From an uncultured Acidimicrobiales bacterium (GTDB lineage: Bacteria; Actinomycetota; Acidimicrobiia; Acidimicrobiales; SHLQ01): a DNA stretch of 47,777 nt. The translations under genes were made by a program, and so were the position numbers. The stretch is taken from NCBI GenBank assembly GCA_938002955.1, contig CALLAA010000110.1, forward strand, positions 1 through 47,777, written 5' to 3'. Positions 17,853-25,824 of the stretch are shown here, in pieces (positions within the stretch are counted from its first letter, which is position 1; the number at the start of each line of letters is the position of its first letter). The notes under the pieces are model-generated. The model was not told the DNA's origin. It did not search any database and was given only the letters and a program-made list of their open reading frames with translations.

Positions 17853-18020
17853 AGGTTCTCCTGATTTGATCTAGCAGGATCTCGACCGGCATTGGGAAAA
17901 CCTTGAGTCATTTGACCTAGTCCATGTGGCCGGCAGCGTCGACAGATCGCGAGATGCGAGCTCGCCATGCTTACCTGGGAGGTAATTGTGTGGACTACGT
18001 CGAATCGTTTTGATGAACCC

Positions 18021-18473
18021 ATGACGACGACAACACCAACCCGAACAACGACCCACCCCACCACCGGCCTTTCGGCCCCGGCGACGCAACTAAAGCTCGC
18101 ATCTATTGGCACGCTCGGCTTTGCCCTGATGATCGCCTTTGGCTCACACGAGCTCACCGACGGGCCGCTTCGATGGTTCGCCGACCTCCTCTTTTGGCCG
18201 CTCGGCGACCCGCAGGTGCTCACCAACGAGGCACAACTACTCGCCGCGATCCTCGGTGGAATCATGGCGTCATGGGCCGCGCTCGTGTGGATGCTCACCG
18301 ACGCACTCGCCGCCGAACAGCCGCTGCTGCTGCGCCGCCTCATCCTCACCATGATGACGATTTGGTTCGTGATCGACAGCGCCGGCTCGGTGGCATCGGG
18401 CGGCTGGCTCAACGTCATCGGAAACCTCGCGTTCCTCGCGTTGTTCGTGCTCCCCGCTCGACGCCTCCGATGA
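18021..18473 (+). CDS. Four-helix integral membrane protein
   Basis: A 150-residue protein with a Thr-rich cytoplasmic N terminus and four hydrophobic helices: TLGFALMIAFG, LLAAILGGIMASWAALVWML, LLRRLILTMMTIWFVID and LNVIGNLAFLALFVL. No named family is recognised. Between helices 1 and 2 lies a polar loop with HELTDGPLRWFADLLFWPLG. ATG 18021 is chosen because a longer frame from 17967 adds unconserved-looking residues across the intergenic region. Its stop overlaps an ATG of the following regulator frame (ATGA), so the two genes form an operon. Confidence 0.75.
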   Translation: MTTTTPTRTTTHPTTGLSAPATQLKLASIGTLGFALMIAFGSHELTDGPLRWFADLLFWPLGDPQVLTNEAQLLAAILGGIMASWAALVWMLTDALAAEQPLLLRRLILTMMTIWFVIDSAGSVASGGWLNVIGNLAFLALFVLPARRLR

Positions 18474-18487
18474 CCTACGGTGGCGCG

Positions 18488-19264
18488 ATGAGCACCCCTA
18501 CGACGACTGCGGCCTTTGGATCTGTCCTAAAGGAATGGCGAGGCGTCCGAAGAATGAGCCAGCTCGAACTCGGGTCGATCGCCGAGGTGTCTCCACGGCA
18601 CATCTCGTTTCTCGAGTCCGGACGGTCGAATCCGAGCCGACCGATGGTGCTCCACCTCAGCGAGGTGCTCGACGTTCCTCGACAGGAGAGAAACCGCTTC
18701 CTCAGCGCAGCTGGCTTTGCGCCAATCTACGAACAGCATGACCCCGACGGCGAGGCAATGGAACCCATACGTCAGGCAATCCAATGGACGCTCGAACAGC
18801 ACGATCCTTTTCCGGCCATCGTCCTCGACCGACACTGGAACGTTCTCCAAGTCAACAACAGCGCGGCCATGATGTTCTCGATGCTGGGACTCGAGTCATC
18901 GATCAACATGATCGATGTGTTCGTCCACGACTCGGCGATCCGGACGCAGATCGTGAACTGGTCCGAGGTCGGCTACTTCTTACTGACCCGCCTGCGGACG
19001 GAGAACACATCGCTCGGTGGCGACCCGTTCATCGAGCAGGCAATCGCTGCCCTTTCGGCCGATGCTGCGATCGCGCCACCGACGTCGGCCACGTTGCCAC
19101 CAGCGCTACCCGCAATCTTCCAGATCGGGGACATGACCGTCTCGTTGCTGTCGACGATCGCACAGTTTGGTTCGGCCGAGGACATTGCACTGGCCGATCA
19201 ACGGATCGAGTTGTTCTTTCCTGGTGACGAACCGACCAGAGAATTGTTTCTGGCTACCGGCTAG
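18488..19264 (+). CDS. MmyB-like XRE-family transcriptional regulator
   Basis: A 258-residue regulator. The N terminus is an XRE helix-turn-helix: VLKEWRGVRRMSQLELGS, then VSPRHISFLESGRSNPSR. The rest is a MmyB-like ligand-binding domain, with the typical PFPAIVLDRHWNVLQVNNSA at about 99-118 and a C-terminal IALADQRIELFFPGDEPT. These domains bind fatty-acid-like ligands in known structures, which suggests sensing of a small hydrophobic molecule. ATG 18488 gives the natural N terminus, while ATG 18470 would add six residues and overlap the upstream stop. It ends 11 bp inside the convergent propeller gene. Confidence 0.87.
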   Translation: MSTPTTTAAFGSVLKEWRGVRRMSQLELGSIAEVSPRHISFLESGRSNPSRPMVLHLSEVLDVPRQERNRFLSAAGFAPIYEQHDPDGEAMEPIRQAIQWTLEQHDPFPAIVLDRHWNVLQVNNSAAMMFSMLGLESSINMIDVFVHDSAIRTQIVNWSEVGYFLLTRLRTENTSLGGDPFIEQAIAALSADAAIAPPTSATLPPALPAIFQIGDMTVSLLSTIAQFGSAEDIALADQRIELFFPGDEPTRELFLATG

Positions 19265-20687
19265 CGACGATCCATGTCGTGCCAGATTCACTGGTCTGCA
19301 CCATGACGATCTCGCTGCTTCCGGTGGCGACCAGCCGCAACCGGTCGGGAGCAGCTACGTCGATCTGCGCGGTGGAGAACGAGTCTTCATCGGCGATTGC
19401 GACGACCGAGGACGAACCGTCCTCGCCGAGGAATCCCATCGTCGAGGCACTGACCGAGACACCACGGTTGGACGCTGCAGACAATGCCGTCCATGTGATT
19501 CCGCCATCGTTGGAGACCAAGGTCCCCGCAGCAGCGTCATCGATGTTGCGCAAGATCACCGCGCCGTCGGCAACCGACACCGTGTGGTTCGCAACATCGA
19601 CGCCGGCCGATGCCAAGGCCTGGACGTCCCAGTCAGCAGCGTCCGTCGAGCGGAACAAGGCAACGCCAAGATCGCTCGTGCGGCCGGCGACGACGAAAGC
19701 ATCGCCGACGGTGGTGGCGCCGCTCAGGGAGAGCGCATCCAGGCGACCGGTGCGCTCGTATGGCCCACCGATCGGCCCGGACCACACCTGGGGCGACTGA
19801 TCGTCTCCGATGACAATCACCCCAGGTGAGCCAACAGCAAGGTCGGTGGCATAGACCTCGCTGCCAGCGAGCGGTGCGGATACGTCCCACGTCACCATGT
19901 CCGAAGACGTGCCGATGAGTACCCGCTTAACTCCTGCGCTTGCATCGAAGCGCTCAAATAGTGCGACGTAGGTTCCGTCGTGTTCGCGAAGGATCGACGC
20001 CGTTGCGTCCTCTGGGACGCCGACGAGTTCTGTGCTCGTCCAGTCGAGACCATTCTCTGATGCCAATGCCATCGCCATCGTGCTGTCGCCAAAGGCTGCA
20101 GCAAGGCCGACGTAACCACCCGCTCCGTCGGCGAGCACCAAGACGCCCGATCCGCTCGAGAGGCCAACCGCCGATTCGCGCGTTTCGACCGTCATGGTCG
20201 CATCATCGTTTTGCAGCAGTGTCGCCGAACCAAAGTCCGCAGTTGTTGTCGTGCCGGCGTCGACGGTCCCAGCCTCATCGGCGTCGACCGATGACTCCTC
20301 GACAGGATCATCAGACGCGGCATCGACGATCGCTTCGGTGTCGGCCGATGCATCGTCCGTTACGTCCTCGGCATCGACCGCGGCCATATCGCTGGACGCG
20401 ACGTCGTCATCGAGCACTTCGGTGGCTTCCGACTGCGCAGCAGCGTCGCTGTTCGGTGCAGCGTCGGCGACTTCGACGGTCGTCTGGCCGTTTGGCTGGC
20501 TGGCGTAGAAGGCACCGAACAGGAGCGAGCTGCTGAGGAGCACTGCGCCACTGGCGCCGAGGACCCGGTTGCGATGGCGTCGGTCGTTGGCGACCGAGGC
20601 GAGCTCGTCGATCGATGGAGCGACGCCCACGTTGGTTGATCGGCCGGAGCGTTCAAGCTCGGCGCGCAAGCGGTCTTCAAGATTCAT
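19254..20687 (-). CDS. Membrane-anchored BNR/propeller-like protein, putative anti-sigma partner (module 1)
   Basis: A 477-residue protein starting MNLEDRLRAELERSGRS, a cytoplasmic segment of about 40 residues, then one transmembrane helix (about 43-62). A long acidic Ala/Asp/Ser-rich stalk (about 70-150) leads to an extracellular domain with repeated Asp-box-like units: ASENGLDWTST, TSSDMVTWDVS, STDAADWDVQA and SNDGGITWTA, typical of sialidase-like beta-propellers. It overlaps the sigma gene by 4 bp (ATGA), the usual place for an anti-sigma factor. A zinc anti-sigma HxxxCxxC motif is absent. It is a paralogue of 21358-22674. The anti-sigma role is inference from topology and gene order. Confidence 0.75.
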   Translation of the reverse strand: MNLEDRLRAELERSGRSTNVGVAPSIDELASVANDRRHRNRVLGASGAVLLSSSLLFGAFYASQPNGQTTVEVADAAPNSDAAAQSEATEVLDDDVASSDMAAVDAEDVTDDASADTEAIVDAASDDPVEESSVDADEAGTVDAGTTTTADFGSATLLQNDDATMTVETRESAVGLSSGSGVLVLADGAGGYVGLAAAFGDSTMAMALASENGLDWTSTELVGVPEDATASILREHDGTYVALFERFDASAGVKRVLIGTSSDMVTWDVSAPLAGSEVYATDLAVGSPGVIVIGDDQSPQVWSGPIGGPYERTGRLDALSLSGATTVGDAFVVAGRTSDLGVALFRSTDAADWDVQALASAGVDVANHTVSVADGAVILRNIDDAAAGTLVSNDGGITWTALSAASNRGVSVSASTMGFLGEDGSSSVVAIADEDSFSTAQIDVAAPDRLRLVATGSSEIVMVQTSESGTTWIVASR

Positions 20688-21154
20688 GATTCGTCTCCGA
20701 GGAGTCGGTTGAGTTCGTGCAGTGCACGATTGGTACGGCTCTTGACCGTGCCAGGCGAAATGTCGAGGGCGTCGGCGGTCGCGTCGATCGTCCAGTCGAG
20801 GAAGTATCGAAGGACCAACACGTTGCGTTGCTCCTCGGGCAGTGTTCGCAGCGCGTTTGTGAGCTGCGGGTCCGGGGTTGGGTCGGTGGTCGATTCCGGA
20901 CGGGCGATCGTGGATGCGAACCGTCGATCCCGGCTGCGTCGCCGGAATCGGCTCGTGGCCCAATTGCGGGCGGTGCGGTACACCCACGCGGCGGGTTCGT
21001 CGAAGGAGCCAACGGCGTGCCAGCGATGCAGGGCCCGAGTAAATGCTTCGTCCACGGCTTCGGTGGCGAGTGCGTCGTCGCCGAGCGCGATCGATAGCGC
21101 TCGGACCAAGCGGTCTCGCTCACCGGCGTAGACGGTGGAAAAGTCGTTGTTCAT
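20684..21154 (-). CDS. ECF-type RNA polymerase sigma factor (module 1)
   Basis: A 156-residue sigma factor. Region 2 reads ALATEAVDEAFTRALHRW...WVYRTARNWATSRFRRR. Region 4 reads LPEEQRNVLVLRYFLDWTID and then ADALDISPGTVKSRTNRALHEL. It resembles the SigE-like/SACE group of actinobacterial ECF factors. It is clearly paralogous to the sigma gene at 22671, with IARPES, VLVLRYF and ISPGTVKSRT in common. ATG 21154 is chosen because the N terminus then aligns with the other copy. A GTG at 21244 lies close to the predicted transcription start and could give a leaderless, 30-residue longer form. Confidence 0.88.
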   Translation of the reverse strand: MNNDFSTVYAGERDRLVRALSIALGDDALATEAVDEAFTRALHRWHAVGSFDEPAAWVYRTARNWATSRFRRRSRDRRFASTIARPESTTDPTPDPQLTNALRTLPEEQRNVLVLRYFLDWTIDATADALDISPGTVKSRTNRALHELNRLLGDES

Positions 21155-21253
21155 CACCCGTACCTGGCTTTGGGCACGGCGAGAACGAGCGCCGGCGACC
21201 ACGGGGTGGCCGGGCAGCACTGCTGATCTCGAAATCGTGTCCACGCCTGCTCT

Positions 21254-21278
21254 ACGCCCATCTCACGTGAAAGGTTCC
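21254..21278 (-). promoter_or_regulatory. ECF-type promoter candidate for module 1
   Basis: On the minus strand GGAACC (21278-21273) is followed after exactly 16 nt by CGTAG (CGT at 21256-21254). GGAAC with 16-17 nt to a CGTC/CGTA-like -10 is the usual ECF promoter shape. The same combination and spacing occurs in front of module 2. Confidence 0.55.
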
Positions 21279-21308
21279 CAGAAAAACCAGATTTCTCCCA
21301 AACGCCCA

Positions 21309-21357
21309 CGCCAACCCCCATAACGCCGGGTCTGACCCGGTGTTGTGGGGGTTGGCG
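21309..21357 (-). terminator. 24-bp stem terminator after module 2
   Basis: Directly after the stop codon of the module 2 propeller gene, CGCCAACCCCC... pairs with ...GGGGGTTGGCG over 24 bp with two G-U type pairs and a tiny loop. It separates module 2 from the module 1 promoter, so the modules are probably independent transcription units. Confidence 0.8.
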
Positions 21358-22674
21358 CTAGCGGAGCGGGACTCGCACGTAGTTGAGCTCGGCGGTTTCG
21401 GCGACTTGCAGGAGCACTTCGTCGGCACTCACTCCGATCAGGATCGCGGTCGCCGACGCAGGAACGAACGGTTCGAGGTTGATCTCGCGGAACTCAGCGC
21501 CGGTCGATACCACCAGCCCGACGCGAGCCGTCACGGAGCCTTCGACTTCTTGCTCGGCCTCGCCGGTGAGCAACACGGCCACAGCCTCGTTACTCGACCG
21601 CACATCGAATGACCACCAGGACGCGTTCGCAACAGTGTTCGGGACACCGACAGGTGTCCACGACGAACCGCCGTCGACCGACTCAAAGATCTGGAAGATG
21701 CCAGCGCCGCTGAGATTGGTGGACCCAATCGATAGCAATTTGCCGTCGGCCGAGGCGATCGTGGAGAACTGATTCGCCGGGTCGGCAACGGTGGCCGCCG
21801 ACCACGAGTCGCCGTTCGTCGATGTCCACACCTCGGGCGCTCCGTCGCCGAAGGCCGACAGCGCAAAGCCTGAGCTCGTCGCTGAAATTCGGTCGACACC
21901 GAACTCGACAGCATCGAGCACCATCGCTTGGTATGGGCCACCGATGGGGCCGCGAATGACGTACCCCGTTGGCGAAAACTCACCCTGCTCATCTTCGGCC
22001 GACGCGCCGAAGGCCGACGCCGTGGTCACGACCTGACCATCGCGAATGGCGAGGCCCGATACGAACGCGTCCGGTTCGTCGGCGAGCACCGCGATGAGGG
22101 TCCAGTTGGTTCCGTCCGTTGCGGTACCGATGAAGTTCTGCGGTGTTCCGGTGTTCTTATCGAATGTTCGGAACACACCAGCGAGCATGCCGTCACTGTG
22201 GGTCAACGCTGCAATCTCGATGTTGTCGTCGAGTCCGGTGGTTGGCGTTTCTTGCCAGTTCACGCCGTCATCTGAATCGATCGCGAGTATCGAACCGGCG
22301 TCATTGCGGAGGCCGACGAAGCCATCGTCGACGCCGACGATGACATCGAAGCTTGCGACCGGCCCGTCGAACATTGCAGAGTCGCTAGCCCCGGGCTCAA
22401 TCATTGCGGATTCCATGACGGCATCGTCCTGGGCCATCTCGTCCTGGGCCATCTCGTCGAGGGCGATGTCGTCGCTGTCCGACGTACCGACCAGCGATGT
22501 AGCGCCGAGCACCAGGCCGATCCCGACCACACCGGCTGCCAAGCCAGCACCGATCTGATTGCGACGGGTACGTCGTTTGCCCGCAGCCGAGATATCGCTC
22601 GCCGAAGCGTGTCCCTCGACGAAGAGGTCCTCCGCGGAATGCATGTGGTTTCTGAGACGGTCTTCGAGGTTCAT
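21358..22674 (-). CDS. Membrane-anchored BNR/propeller-like protein, putative anti-sigma partner (module 2)
   Basis: A 438-residue paralogue of 19254-20687, again beginning MNLEDRLR. A basic stretch (KRRTRRNQ) precedes one transmembrane helix (about 37-58), then a short acidic stalk that repeats DEMAQDEMAQDD. The extracellular domain has Asp-box-like units: DSDDGVNWQET, TATDGTNWTLI, STNGDSWSAAT and SVDGGSSWTPV. It overlaps its sigma gene by 4 bp. Its stalk is much shorter than that of the other copy. Holding the sigma factor at the membrane and releasing it on an outside signal is the likely role, but no known anti-sigma domain is seen. Confidence 0.75.
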   Translation of the reverse strand: MNLEDRLRNHMHSAEDLFVEGHASASDISAAGKRRTRRNQIGAGLAAGVVGIGLVLGATSLVGTSDSDDIALDEMAQDEMAQDDAVMESAMIEPGASDSAMFDGPVASFDVIVGVDDGFVGLRNDAGSILAIDSDDGVNWQETPTTGLDDNIEIAALTHSDGMLAGVFRTFDKNTGTPQNFIGTATDGTNWTLIAVLADEPDAFVSGLAIRDGQVVTTASAFGASAEDEQGEFSPTGYVIRGPIGGPYQAMVLDAVEFGVDRISATSSGFALSAFGDGAPEVWTSTNGDSWSAATVADPANQFSTIASADGKLLSIGSTNLSGAGIFQIFESVDGGSSWTPVGVPNTVANASWWSFDVRSSNEAVAVLLTGEAEQEVEGSVTARVGLVVSTGAEFREINLEPFVPASATAILIGVSADEVLLQVAETAELNYVRVPLR

Positions 22675-23225
22675 GAGGGGATCTCCGTCGTCGAGCCGCC
22701 ATCTTCTGGATCGAGCTGCTTCGCCATCGCATCGAGCGCACGACTCGTGCGGCTCTTGACCGTGCCGGGTGAAATCTCGAGCGCCTCGGCGGTGGCCTGC
22801 ACGTCCCAGTCGTAGAAGTAGCGAAGGACGAGCACTGCACGATGCTCATCGGTGAGCGTGGCAAGCGCAGCCTCGATCGTTGGGTCGAATTCTGGGTCGA
22901 CGACCGACTCGGGGCGAGCAATGCGCGGCGCATATTCACGATCACGCTTCCGCCGTCGAAACCTGCTCGTCGCCCAGTTGTAGGCAACCCGGTAAACCCA
23001 CCCCTCTGGGCGGCTATATGAACCAACCTTGTCCCAACGCTGAACCGCCCGTGTCATTGCCTCATCGACGGCCTCCGACGCGAGTGCGCTGTCGCCGATG
23101 GTCATCGACAATGCCCGCACCAGAGCATTCCGGTTCGCGGCGAAGAACGCACCGAACGGCTGAACGGTCGAACTTGCGTCGTCTGGGTGGGAGGTTGCTT
23201 GGGCAGCAAAGGCACCGTTTGCCAT
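22671..23225 (-). CDS. ECF-type RNA polymerase sigma factor (module 2)
   Basis: A 184-residue sigma factor. Region 2 spans about 45-95 (SALASEAVDEAMTRAVQRW, then WVYRVAYNWATSRFRRRK). Region 4 spans about 120-175 (LTDEHRAVLVLRYFYDWDVQ, then AEALEISPGTVKSRTSRALD). It is about 60 % identical by eye to the module 1 sigma factor in the aligned core. ATG 23225 gives a leader of about 20-25 nt behind the predicted ECF promoter. The gene is divergent from the F420-type oxidoreductase gene at 23319. Confidence 0.88.
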   Translation of the reverse strand: MANGAFAAQATSHPDDASSTVQPFGAFFAANRNALVRALSMTIGDSALASEAVDEAMTRAVQRWDKVGSYSRPEGWVYRVAYNWATSRFRRRKRDREYAPRIARPESVVDPEFDPTIEAALATLTDEHRAVLVLRYFYDWDVQATAEALEISPGTVKSRTSRALDAMAKQLDPEDGGSTTEIPS

Positions 23226-23255
23226 AGCCACAGTTGTAGTGCGCACGTCATGTAC

Positions 23256-23280
23256 ACGCCGCGAACCCACGATCGGTTCC
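23256..23280 (-). promoter_or_regulatory. ECF-type promoter candidate for module 2
   Basis: On the minus strand GGAACC (23280-23275) is followed after exactly 16 nt by CGTGTA (CGT at 23258-23256). This has the same -35 element and spacing as the module 1 candidate at 21254-21278, which suggests recognition by one or both of the local sigma factors. Confidence 0.55.
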
Positions 23281-23318
23281 ATCAAATTTCGAAAACGAAC
23301 GTGACTACATTGAGTGCC

Positions 23319-24248
23319 ATGACCGCACCGATTCGCTTTTCTGCTTCTCTCGGGAAGATCCCCACCGATCAAATCATCGCGACCGCCCAGCGCGCTGAAG
23401 AACTCGGCTACTACTCGGTCACGATTCCCGACCATCTCGACGATCAGCCCGCCCCGCTCATTGCGCTCACGGCCGCTGCGGCGTCGACGTCGACCATCCG
23501 GTTCTTGCCGCTCGTGCTCGCAAACGACTACCGCGAGCCCGTCATCTTGGCCAAGGAGCTCGCCACGATCGATGCGCTGTCGGGCGGCCGCCTCGAGGTC
23601 GGCTTAGGCGCAGGCTGGATGACCGCCGATTACGACTTTGCCGGTATCGAGAACCTCTCCCCCGGCACGCGGATCCGTCGACTCTCCGAATCCGTCGACA
23701 TCATCACCGCGCTGATGGCCGGCGAGCAGGTCGACATCGACGGCGAGTTCTATTCGGTGCACGGCACGCTCGGCACGCCCCATGCTGTACAGCCCGACGG
23801 GGTAAAGGTCATGCTCGCCGGCGGTAAGCAAAAGATGCTGACGCTCGCCGGGGAAAAGGCTGACATCATCGGGATCAACCCAGGGTTGACAGCGGGTGTC
23901 ATCGATGAACGGGCTGGCCGTGACGCCACGTTGGAACGCACCGACCAAAAGATTGAGTGGGTGCGTGACGGTGCCGGCGAGCGGTTCGATTCGCTCATCT
24001 TCCAGACACGCATTCACCTCGCCATGATCACCGACGACCGAGAGGCGGTGGCCCAGGAGATGGCGCCGTTGCTCGGCATCTCGGCCGAAGAGGCGCTGGC
24101 ATCGCCGCACGCACTCGTCGGCAGCGTCGACCAGGTCGTCGACGAGGTGCAGCGCTGGCGAGACCGGTGGGGCTTCTCCTACGTCTCGATCAATGCGGAA
24201 ATGCTCGAAGACTTTGCTCCTGTTGTAGAAGCGTTGAACGGCCGCTAG
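23319..24248 (+). CDS. LLM-class F420-dependent oxidoreductase
   Basis: A 309-residue luciferase-like TIM-barrel protein. N terminus PIRFSASLGKIPTDQIIATA, then YYSVTIPDHLDDQPAPLIAL and the signature SGGRLEVGLGAGWMTADYD near 90-108. These are typical of TIGR03621-like F420-dependent enzymes of actinobacteria. It would move hydride between F420 and an unknown substrate. ATG 23319 fits the family N terminus. A TACATT 7 nt before the ATG could be a -10 element giving a leaderless message. Its last 59 bp overlap the GMC oxidoreductase gene on the other strand. Confidence 0.88.
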   Translation: MTAPIRFSASLGKIPTDQIIATAQRAEELGYYSVTIPDHLDDQPAPLIALTAAAASTSTIRFLPLVLANDYREPVILAKELATIDALSGGRLEVGLGAGWMTADYDFAGIENLSPGTRIRRLSESVDIITALMAGEQVDIDGEFYSVHGTLGTPHAVQPDGVKVMLAGGKQKMLTLAGEKADIIGINPGLTAGVIDERAGRDATLERTDQKIEWVRDGAGERFDSLIFQTRIHLAMITDDREAVAQEMAPLLGISAEEALASPHALVGSVDQVVDEVQRWRDRWGFSYVSINAEMLEDFAPVVEALNGR

Positions 24249-25824
24249 TTCGTTCGAGCTCACCGAGGTGACGTGCGAGGCGCACCGCCAGCGCCACGAT
24301 CAGCAACGTTGGGTTGAAATGCCCGCTCGTTGGAAACGTTGAGCTGCCCGCGATGAAGAGATTCTCGATGCCGTGTACTCGGCAGTCAGCATCGACGACA
24401 CCGTCGGCTGGAGCGGTGCTCATGCGCGTCGTCCCCGACGGGTGCTTCATGTCGATCATGTCAAGGTGATCCTGGCCATCGAGAAGATCGCTGGAGAACG
24501 TGGTGATCCCAATCGACTCGACCGCATTGCGAAACAACTCATGCATCCGATGTTGTGAGCGGCGGGTGGACTCACCGATTCGCCAGTCGAGCGATACGCG
24601 CGGCAGACCAAAGCGGTCGAGATTGCGATGATCCACCGTCAAGCGGCTCGCCCGATCCGGTTCGTGCTCCATCTGATCGACCACGACAAACTTCGTGGGT
24701 GTTGCACGTCCGGTGCTCAGCCGAGCGAATTCCGGCACGTGACGACCCATGGTGACGAGGTCGCAAGCAAGCTCCCGACCTTCGCTGCGATCACGCGCTC
24801 CGAGCCGTCCCCGTATCCGCTTGTAACTGTCGAAGCCGTCGCTGGTCTGCTCGTCGCACACCAGATAGCCATGCATGCTGTGGTTCAGGAGCTCCTCCGA
24901 GCGCTGCATTGCCTCGGGGAACACCAGCCGCAGCTGCGTGAGGCCAAAGGGCCCGTCGACTCGTTCGTCGAGAAACGAGACGGCATTGCGTTGGGCTTGG
25001 GTTAGTCCGCGCAGGTCGATACGCGCATGTCCCTCGCCGCGAGGATGATCGAGATAGTAGCGACCCACGTTGTCGTGCTGGTTGCCGATTCCCGTGTCGA
25101 ATCGGTCGTTGGACGCGAGGAGCAGGCGGGCGTTCTCGATGCCCCCGGCAGCCAAGACAAACTGCGATGAGCGAACAACGAAGGTGCCCCCGCCCGGCCC
25201 AACGACGCGAACGCCAGTCACTCGTGACGACTCGTCGACGATCAAACGCTGCGCCGTCGCGTGCGTCAGGGTCATGACATTCCGAGACCGTTTGAGCAGC
25301 GGTTTCGCTGCCTTGCCCATGTCTTGGGCCCCCGACCACAGGAAGGGTTGCAACTCGACCTGATCGCCGGCGAAGGTTCTGATGGTCTCGTTCGTTGGCC
25401 ACCGTGAAAGATCGAACGAGTCGAAATGTGGGACCTCGAGAATGCTGGCGGCTTTGGGATACCACTTGTTGAGTTCGGAGAACTCGATTGGCCAACCGCT
25501 CTTTGGAACCCACGGCCGAGGCGCGAAGTCGATCGCGTCAGGGAGCGCGATCCGCCCGAACCACAGATTTGTGGACCCGCCGAGCCACCGGCCCCGATCC
25601 TCGATGGGGTTTCTGGTCCAATCGCCGCGCTGCTCGATCTGGAAGCTGTCGGCCTCGGCCTCGGTGTCTCGCTTCTGACCGCCCGCTTCGAGCATGATCA
25701 CGCGGGTGTTGGACCCGTCCAGGCAGCGCGCCAAGGTGATCCCTGCTGCCCCGCTTCCGATCACGCAAATGTCGGTGGTCAGAGTCTCGTCTACGGCAAC
25801 ACCCTCTGCCGAACGAATCGCCAT
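24190..25824 (-). CDS. GMC-family FAD-dependent oxidoreductase
   Basis: A 544-residue flavoprotein. The FAD Rossmann motif is ICVIGSGAAGITLARCL (about 20-36). RWLGGSTNLWFGR follows, and the C-terminal block HPSGTTRM...GVVDADCRVHGIENL...TSGHFNPTLLIVALAVRLA matches the GMC_oxred_C family of sugar/alcohol oxidases. It probably oxidises a sugar or other alcohol. It is 3 nt downstream of a DegT-type aminotransferase, so an oxidation-then-amination route to an amino sugar is a reasonable guess. The last 59 bp lie antisense to the end of the oxidoreductase gene at 23319. ATG 25824 is the natural start. Confidence 0.88.
   Translation of the reverse strand: MAIRSAEGVAVDETLTTDICVIGSGAAGITLARCLDGSNTRVIMLEAGGQKRDTEAEADSFQIEQRGDWTRNPIEDRGRWLGGSTNLWFGRIALPDAIDFAPRPWVPKSGWPIEFSELNKWYPKAASILEVPHFDSFDLSRWPTNETIRTFAGDQVELQPFLWSGAQDMGKAAKPLLKRSRNVMTLTHATAQRLIVDESSRVTGVRVVGPGGGTFVVRSSQFVLAAGGIENARLLLASNDRFDTGIGNQHDNVGRYYLDHPRGEGHARIDLRGLTQAQRNAVSFLDERVDGPFGLTQLRLVFPEAMQRSEELLNHSMHGYLVCDEQTSDGFDSYKRIRGRLGARDRSEGRELACDLVTMGRHVPEFARLSTGRATPTKFVVVDQMEHEPDRASRLTVDHRNLDRFGLPRVSLDWRIGESTRRSQHRMHELFRNAVESIGITTFSSDLLDGQDHLDMIDMKHPSGTTRMSTAPADGVVDADCRVHGIENLFIAGSSTFPTSGHFNPTLLIVALAVRLARHLGELERTSGRSTLLQQEQSLRAFPH

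Follow-up and report, generated by a model that had tools for sequence, protein, structure and literature searches.

How are two adjacent sigma factor genes controlled when each runs, through a short overlap, into a gene for a one-helix membrane protein? The question is raised by a 47,777-nucleotide stretch of DNA from an uncultured Acidimicrobiales bacterium (GenBank assembly GCA_938002955.1, contig CALLAA010000110.1), here called the window, which lies on contig C110 of a 3.93 Mb draft genome and carries two sigma/partner pairs on its minus strand, with pair B adjoining pair A. The original prediction took the locus for a duplicated transmembrane signalling unit in which an outer propeller, instead of a zinc anti-sigma (ZAS) domain, controls the sigma factor. 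The observation behind it is confirmed and is more than chance, and the interpretation is partly supported, being right in outline and wrong in placing control in the propeller. In our view, each pair likely forms a unit that signals across the membrane and amplifies its own expression.

Sigma-A (22671–23246) and sigma-B (20684–21244) are, by their domain content, predicted extracytoplasmic function (ECF) sigma factors with regions 2 and 4 and without region 3; PF04542, PF08281, and PF04545 exceed the Pfam cut-off in both, and no region 3 family was listed for either in the Pfam scan. The two proteins share 62% identity over 151 gapless residues, close to the figure of about 60% of core residues previously estimated by eye. 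The best NCBIfam match of both is SigE-fam_strep (TIGR02983), at 120.8 and 114.5 bits, yet both scores lie below the model's cut-off of 141.55 bits and neither protein is counted as a member. The stop codon of each sigma gene overlaps the next gene by four bases (ATGA), and the encoded proteins, partner-A (21358–22674, 438 residues) and partner-B (19254–20687, 477 residues), both begin with MNLEDRLR and contain a single hydrophobic helix (residues 40–65 in A and 42–60 in B), so that the gene and helix calls agree with the arrangement originally described. An AlphaFold model of partner-A built with an alignment of 17 sequences (mc7baf05854f9) places helices at residues 3–18 and 25–57, followed by a low-confidence stalk that ends at residue 106. 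The remainder (107–438) is an all-strand domain, for the most part modelled with confidence, whose strands were grouped by hand into seven blades. The model of partner-B (m2e71617ea479) follows the same plan, with helices 3–17 and 26–62, a tail of about 40 residues, a long acidic stalk to about residue 151, and the outer domain at about 152–477. In both models the cytosolic tail forms two helices, but at a predicted local distance difference test (pLDDT) score of mostly 37–80 per ten residues. The outer domains and stalks differ between the partners, as had been noted from the sequence: the low-confidence stretch ends at residue 106 in A versus 151 in B, the outer parts are 29% identical over the part aligned by BLAST, and identity is 31% in the tail versus 23% in the propeller.

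Both outer domains are predicted to be β-propellers. Foldseek searches against the PDB returned 279 matches for partner-A and 368 for partner-B at E ≤ 0.001, and the 50 listed for each, judged by protein name, are mostly propeller proteins, among them sialidases, sortilin, and kelch proteins for partner-A and BamB, PLL/PHL lectins, and sialidases for partner-B. The template modelling scores are modest (0.25–0.46 by query), so that the fold class is clear but no close relative stands out. The models and the fold search agree with the proposal that a transmembrane sigma module bearing outer propellers has been duplicated. For the more specific description of these domains as BNR/Asp-box-like, the Pfam matches are weak, with BNR_2 in partner-A at E = 1.4e-6 and 28.3 bits, below the cut-off of 31.4, and BNR in partner-B at E = 0.22. 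A Pfam scan of 35 partners gave four BNR_2, one PSII_BNR, and one GvpG match. Two or more strict Asp-boxes are found outside the membrane in 38 of 158 partners, versus a mean of 0 in 20 shuffles, which makes Asp-box domains one of several outer types.

The promoter of sigma-A (23256–23280, minus strand) and that of sigma-B (21254–21278, minus strand) have the form GGAACC-N16-CGT with identical spacing, as originally reported, and each ends 9 nt before an in-frame GTG, at 23246 and 21244, respectively. The GTGs precede the ATGs at 23225 and 21154 by 7 and 30 codons, respectively; the frames first given for the sigma genes (22671–23225 and 20684–21154) are open, with the probable starts further upstream. 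The promoters are kept in A-type and B-type relatives, respectively, except that the exact form is absent from the B-type relative L087. By number alone the motif is not rare: a genome-wide scan found 94 sites versus 27 for the reversed pattern. Its position is what departs from chance, being fixed at 9 nt at the sigma genes, and it is by position that the refuting condition set originally, a random frequency, is answered. Among the best 47 of 57 places matching sigma-A, GGAACC-N16-CGT lies within 400 nt upstream of the sigma match at 23 loci, with the N17 form in one; within the 300 nt that precede the chosen start codon it was found at 22 of 47, versus about 0.004 expected per window as computed from the rest of the same loci. 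At all 22 sites a GTG or ATG follows exactly 9 nt past CGT, in frame with the sigma gene. Six more loci carry CGAACC with the same spacing, bringing [G/C]GAACC to 28/47 and the in-frame arrangement to 28/28. The only other match to the 9-nt geometry in 670,200 strand-bases of these loci turned out to be the promoter of the sigma gene in L097, a locus likewise among the 47, for which the start had first been placed too far upstream. Across the 11 genomes of the genus, GGAACC-N16-CGT-N9-RTG occurs 75 times versus 6 for the reversed pattern, and an offset scan gave these 75 matches at offset 9 versus 142 at offsets 10–15 together (about 24 each). The same in-frame GGAACC geometry is present at three Actinoplanes or Paractinoplanes sigma genes (L253, L255, and L257) and one from Nocardioides (L264).

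The position of the start codon relative to the −10 element points to leaderless transcripts. The CGTC element of the Tt-RpoE1 promoter lies at −13 to −10 (PMC3397946), and by that spacing the start codons in the window would have their first base within one base of the expected transcription start. In mycobacteria, about a quarter of mRNAs are leaderless and a GTG or ATG suffices (PMC6448022). Because the motif sits exactly 9 nt before an in-frame GTG or ATG, the sigma mRNAs are probably leaderless, with true starts at 23246 and 21244. A strong, terminator-like hairpin (21308–21358, minus strand) directly follows the partner-A stop codon and lies between partner-A and sigma-B; the fold of 21285–21372 has an energy of −55.7 kcal/mol (z −5.8). 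The hairpin has no T run, and no T-tailed terminator was found there in a consensus scan; an Rfam scan of 18000–25000 gave zero matches. It would part the modules into two transcription units, and together with the promoter of sigma-B it makes module B likely to be a separate unit.

The best evidence here for autoregulation, drawn from sequence comparison, is an apparent match between the −35 element of each sigma gene and the region 4 (sigma4) residue of the encoded protein. In Escherichia coli, Arg-176 of sigma-E contacts the first G of the −35 element (PMC3397946). When 172 sigma open reading frames (ORFs) were aligned to E. coli RpoE and the column of this residue was read, 44 had an in-frame NGAACN-N16-CGT-N9-RTG. 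The column holds Arg in 37 of the 37 with G as the first −35 base and never in the six with C, which have Thr (five) or Val (one); the single case with T (TGAACC) has Arg. Among these 44, the promoters of the Arg-bearing sigma factors are GGAACC or GGAACG, with one TGAACC. Three more members of the clade with C, identified by eye, combine CGAACC with an altered −10 and the residues Glu, Glu, and Val. This CGAACC clade (L088, L089, L090, L092, L093, L103, L106, L107, and L108) consists of paralogous sigma factors without the sigma4 Arg whose partners have about 650–690 residues, and L091, the first branch beside it, has Arg and GGAACC. The change goes in the direction that the contact predicts, and the match supports the proposal that each sigma factor reads its own promoter.

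The pairing itself is conserved in relatives, in agreement with what the original prediction would lead one to expect. In a set of 171 distinct ORFs chosen for this sigma type, 158 are followed by a one-helix partner (median start of the first membrane helix, residue 39), and 94 of the 158 pairs have the 4-base overlap. Complete partners span 170–767 residues, with the tail, a basic patch, and the position of the helix kept. A sigma-A query found a match at E ≤ 1e-20 in 29 of 59 relatives, and a profile of 30 sigma factors detected a related one in 250 of the 395 genomes sampled from the class; the same layout is seen in loci from Actinoplanes, Nocardioides, Micromonospora, and Kribbella, and the cultured relative Ilumatobacter carries a related pair (L248). 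Within the genus, several of whose 11 genomes are incomplete drafts, the A–B tandem is present in six; one has the two modules on different contigs, and in four the B type alone was found. In a tree, A (7 rows) separates from B (11 rows), and one group holds both together with two long-branched rows. The two modules probably arose by duplication in the genus, which the tree fits, although it does not prove A and B to be sisters.

The likely holder of the sigma factor, judging from protein anatomy, is the zinc-free cytosolic tail of the partner (residues 1–38 in partner-A). The earlier proposal was borne out insofar as there is no zinc anti-sigma motif, with HxxxCxxC found in the first 100 residues of 0 of 158 partners and no Cys before the helix in 157 of 158. 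The propeller lies outside the membrane and therefore cannot itself hold the sigma factor. The TolB-type domain is a propeller fold, and Thermoanaerobacter tengcongensis, whose proteins Tt-RpoE1 and Tt-TolB provide a precedent, belongs to the Bacillota. In that system an ECF sigma gene is followed by a gene for a one-helix protein with a short cytosolic N terminus, a helix at residues 39–61, and a TolB-type outer domain; residues 1–39 of Tt-TolB bind Tt-RpoE1, the protein inhibits transcription in vitro, and the sigma factor is autoregulated from a promoter with an N16 spacer and a CGT-type −10 (PMC3397946). The partners here share this layout, with the sigma gene directly upstream, a helix at about residue 39, and a propeller-type outer domain. 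The systems differ in the −35 element, which is tGTTAC in T. tengcongensis, and in the outer domain, which is TolB there and Asp-box-like here, and neither the leaderless geometry nor the tandem duplication is described for Tt-RpoE1/Tt-TolB in the accessible part of that report (PMC3397946). On the same source, the kind of system is already known through Tt-TolB, which is experimentally an anti-sigma factor. In class II anti-sigma factors, the first helix lies on sigma4 and the second on sigma2. Their member CnrY, which wraps two helices round CnrH, is likewise a short cytosolic segment without a zinc motif (PMC7406223, PMC4598750). The tail here fits it in length and may share its two helices, which are modelled at low pLDDT; in contrast, the sensor of that system, CnrX, is a protein of its own, whereas the sensor here is fused to the partner, and no anti-sigma factor is named among the PDB sequence matches of the tail. 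It is the Tt-TolB experiment and the two-helix plan of class II proteins such as CnrY that suggest the tail as the anti-sigma part and make both partners probable anti-sigma factors. ZAS and class I anti-sigma factors resemble the partners in providing membrane-anchored control of an ECF sigma factor encoded next door, but the tail lacks HxxxCxxC and, at about 38 residues, is below half the mean length of the multi-helix class I domain (101 ± 33 residues; PMC7406223). ECF57 also links propeller-forming, WD40-like repeats to an ECF sigma factor, with the difference that the repeats form a C-terminal extension of the sigma factor and not a separate membrane protein (PMC8999054). Tt-TolB and the ECF57 extensions are the propeller-type precedents found among the open-licence papers searched, and we do not claim that others are absent from print.

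The promoter motif is not confined to sigma genes. Of the 75 sites in the genus, 66 were fetched (the other 9, being sigma promoters, were left out), giving 62 distinct sites. Of these, 34 lead into an exported-like ORF, which in 27 cases has a lipobox-like motif, and 8 belong to sigma genes. The control pattern with CGAACC gave 34 sites, of which 30 were fetched, with exported-like ORFs at 0/30 and sigma promoters at 5/30. Among 21 sites picked by hand, one in the genus and the rest in other genera, 19 likewise start an exported-like ORF; this rate is biased, as an ATG and a −10 resembling the others were the main grounds of choice. The exported set includes serpins, a META protein, DUF4349, DUF6174, and VWA proteins; its loci are L117–L186, with L135/L183, L145/L184, and L173 in the window genome, and L217–L234 and L236 in other genera. 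We regard this set as a candidate ECF regulon of surface lipoproteins, apparently leaderless. The idea that it is the regulon of sigma-A or sigma-B was rejected, as the sites do not plainly follow the presence of these sigma factors. Genome G004, with one B-type sigma factor, has no site besides the sigma promoter, and G003, whose B-type sigma gene lacks the exact promoter, has six exported sites; G003 also encodes the Arg-type sigma factor L091 with GGAACC, which weakens this argument. Exported sites occur as well in G021, G031, G032, G037, and G047, which have no sigma-A match at E ≤ 1e-20, although G032 and G037 do have related sigma factors by profile search, and the spacer and −10 neighbours of the exported-gene sites are unlike those of the sigma promoters. 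A possible protease-inhibitor function is kept as a lead: a scan of 30 proteins gave two serpins and one META domain, whereas the presumed I78-like resemblance of several others found no support in Pfam at E ≤ 0.05.

A further form of the site, GGAACC-N16-CGTACAAGG with a freely varying spacer, recurs in 11 of 11 genus genomes. Its surroundings were read in the window genome, where the copy (G000:C56:21261–21302, in L039) overlaps the 3′ end of a sigma gene just before the next gene; we take these two to be a SigM-like sigma gene and an anti-sigma-like gene. This site may be an internal promoter or a conserved peptide.

Taken together, the following mechanism is proposed for each pair. At rest, the zinc-free tail of the partner, probably two helices, would hold the ECF sigma factor at the membrane, as the anatomy and Tt-TolB suggest. 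A cue sensed by the outer propeller, either as ligand binding or as proteolytic loss, would free the sigma factor. As a guess, release would probably proceed via cleavage of the stalk and membrane helix; a gene for an M50 intramembrane protease is present in the genome (best E 2.5e-41), as it is in all 14 control genomes. The freed sigma factor would read the GGAACC-N16-CGT ahead of its own gene and start transcription at or next to the start codon, with sigma factor and partner made together from one leaderless transcript. Modules A and B would be transcribed separately from very similar promoters and, because their outer domains differ, would probably respond to different cues.

Several observations weigh against this mechanism and lend weight to other explanations. 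On the side of the promoter, the exact in-frame form is absent from 128 of the 172 sigma ORFs, Arg is in any case the common state at the sigma4 column (134/172), and the cases of C with a residue other than Arg are confined to one clade and so perhaps reflect one event, not six. The partner could be an anti-sigma factor while transcription of the sigma genes depends on a different ECF sigma factor of the same −35/−10 class, for example a SigM-like one, the modules being its targets and not autoregulated. The same core motif and leaderless spacing ahead of many lipoprotein genes in the genus and the order would fit such a regulator, as would the recurrent GGAACC-N16-CGTACAAGG site with its window-genome copy beside the presumed SigM-like gene. 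A foreign sigma factor would not, however, produce a match in which absence of the contacting Arg from a paralogous sigma factor goes with CGAACC at the promoter of its gene, and presence with GGAACC, GGAACG, or in one case TGAACC, and we therefore hold this explanation to be unlikely. It is improbable that the promoter is an ordinary, leadered one, with the GTG in frame by chance and translation from the ATGs at 23225 and 21154; both ATGs are open starts as well, but a start codon at 9 nt that is in frame at 22 of 22 sites, and the excess at offset 9 over offsets 10–15, speak against such a coincidence.

On the side of the partner, no recognized partner follows 13 of the 171 sigma ORFs, no anti-sigma family was found by Pfam in the 35 partners scanned, and none of the 13 matches of the tail to PDB sequences up to E = 10 is an anti-sigma factor by name, the best being a POU-domain protein (E 0.00056). 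Covariation of the sigma factor with the tail, at 0.52 pairs per column over z 3, is no stronger than with the 20 residues outside the membrane (0.55) and therefore does not show contact with the tail; covariation with the membrane helix alone is lower (0.10). These results, and the sialidases and lectins among the PDB matches listed, could be accommodated if the partner did not bind the sigma factor and were a surface protein merely co-expressed with it, such as an adhesin or an enzyme with a sialidase-like fold. That the tail, basic patch, and helix position are kept in partners of such different size, and that Tt-TolB, with the same layout, binds and inhibits its sigma factor (PMC3397946), makes this explanation improbable. 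The self-amplifying signalling unit is thus retained as the likely account of both pairs.

Two neighbouring ORFs on the plus strand border the locus. One (23187–24248, probable start near 23320) is divergent, begins close to the sigma-A promoter, and presumably resembles an F420-type oxidoreductase. The other (18173–19264) runs toward partner-B, overlaps its 3′ end by 11 bases, and has a middle part that we take to be helix-turn-helix-like.

Relative to the known kind of system, the new features are the putative autopromoter with its leaderless geometry and the match of −35 base and sigma4 residue, neither of which the original prediction had noted, and the presence of two unlike predicted propellers in tandem. 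We see about an even chance that these modules represent a large class of actinobacterial one-helix sensors that combine a zinc-free, two-helix anti-sigma tail of about 38 residues with freely swapped outer domains and leaderless, self-read sigma promoters, and whose sister modules are insulated by a joint switch of the −35 base and the sigma4 residue. If so, the promoters, start codons, and partners of many unstudied sigma systems in the class could be assigned from sequence alone. The two promoter types would provide two naturally occurring sigma/promoter specificities, which exchange of a single base and a single residue should convert into each other. Zinc-free tails of this short kind, in which Pfam recognized no anti-sigma domain in any of the 35 partners scanned, may be a common type of anti-sigma factor.

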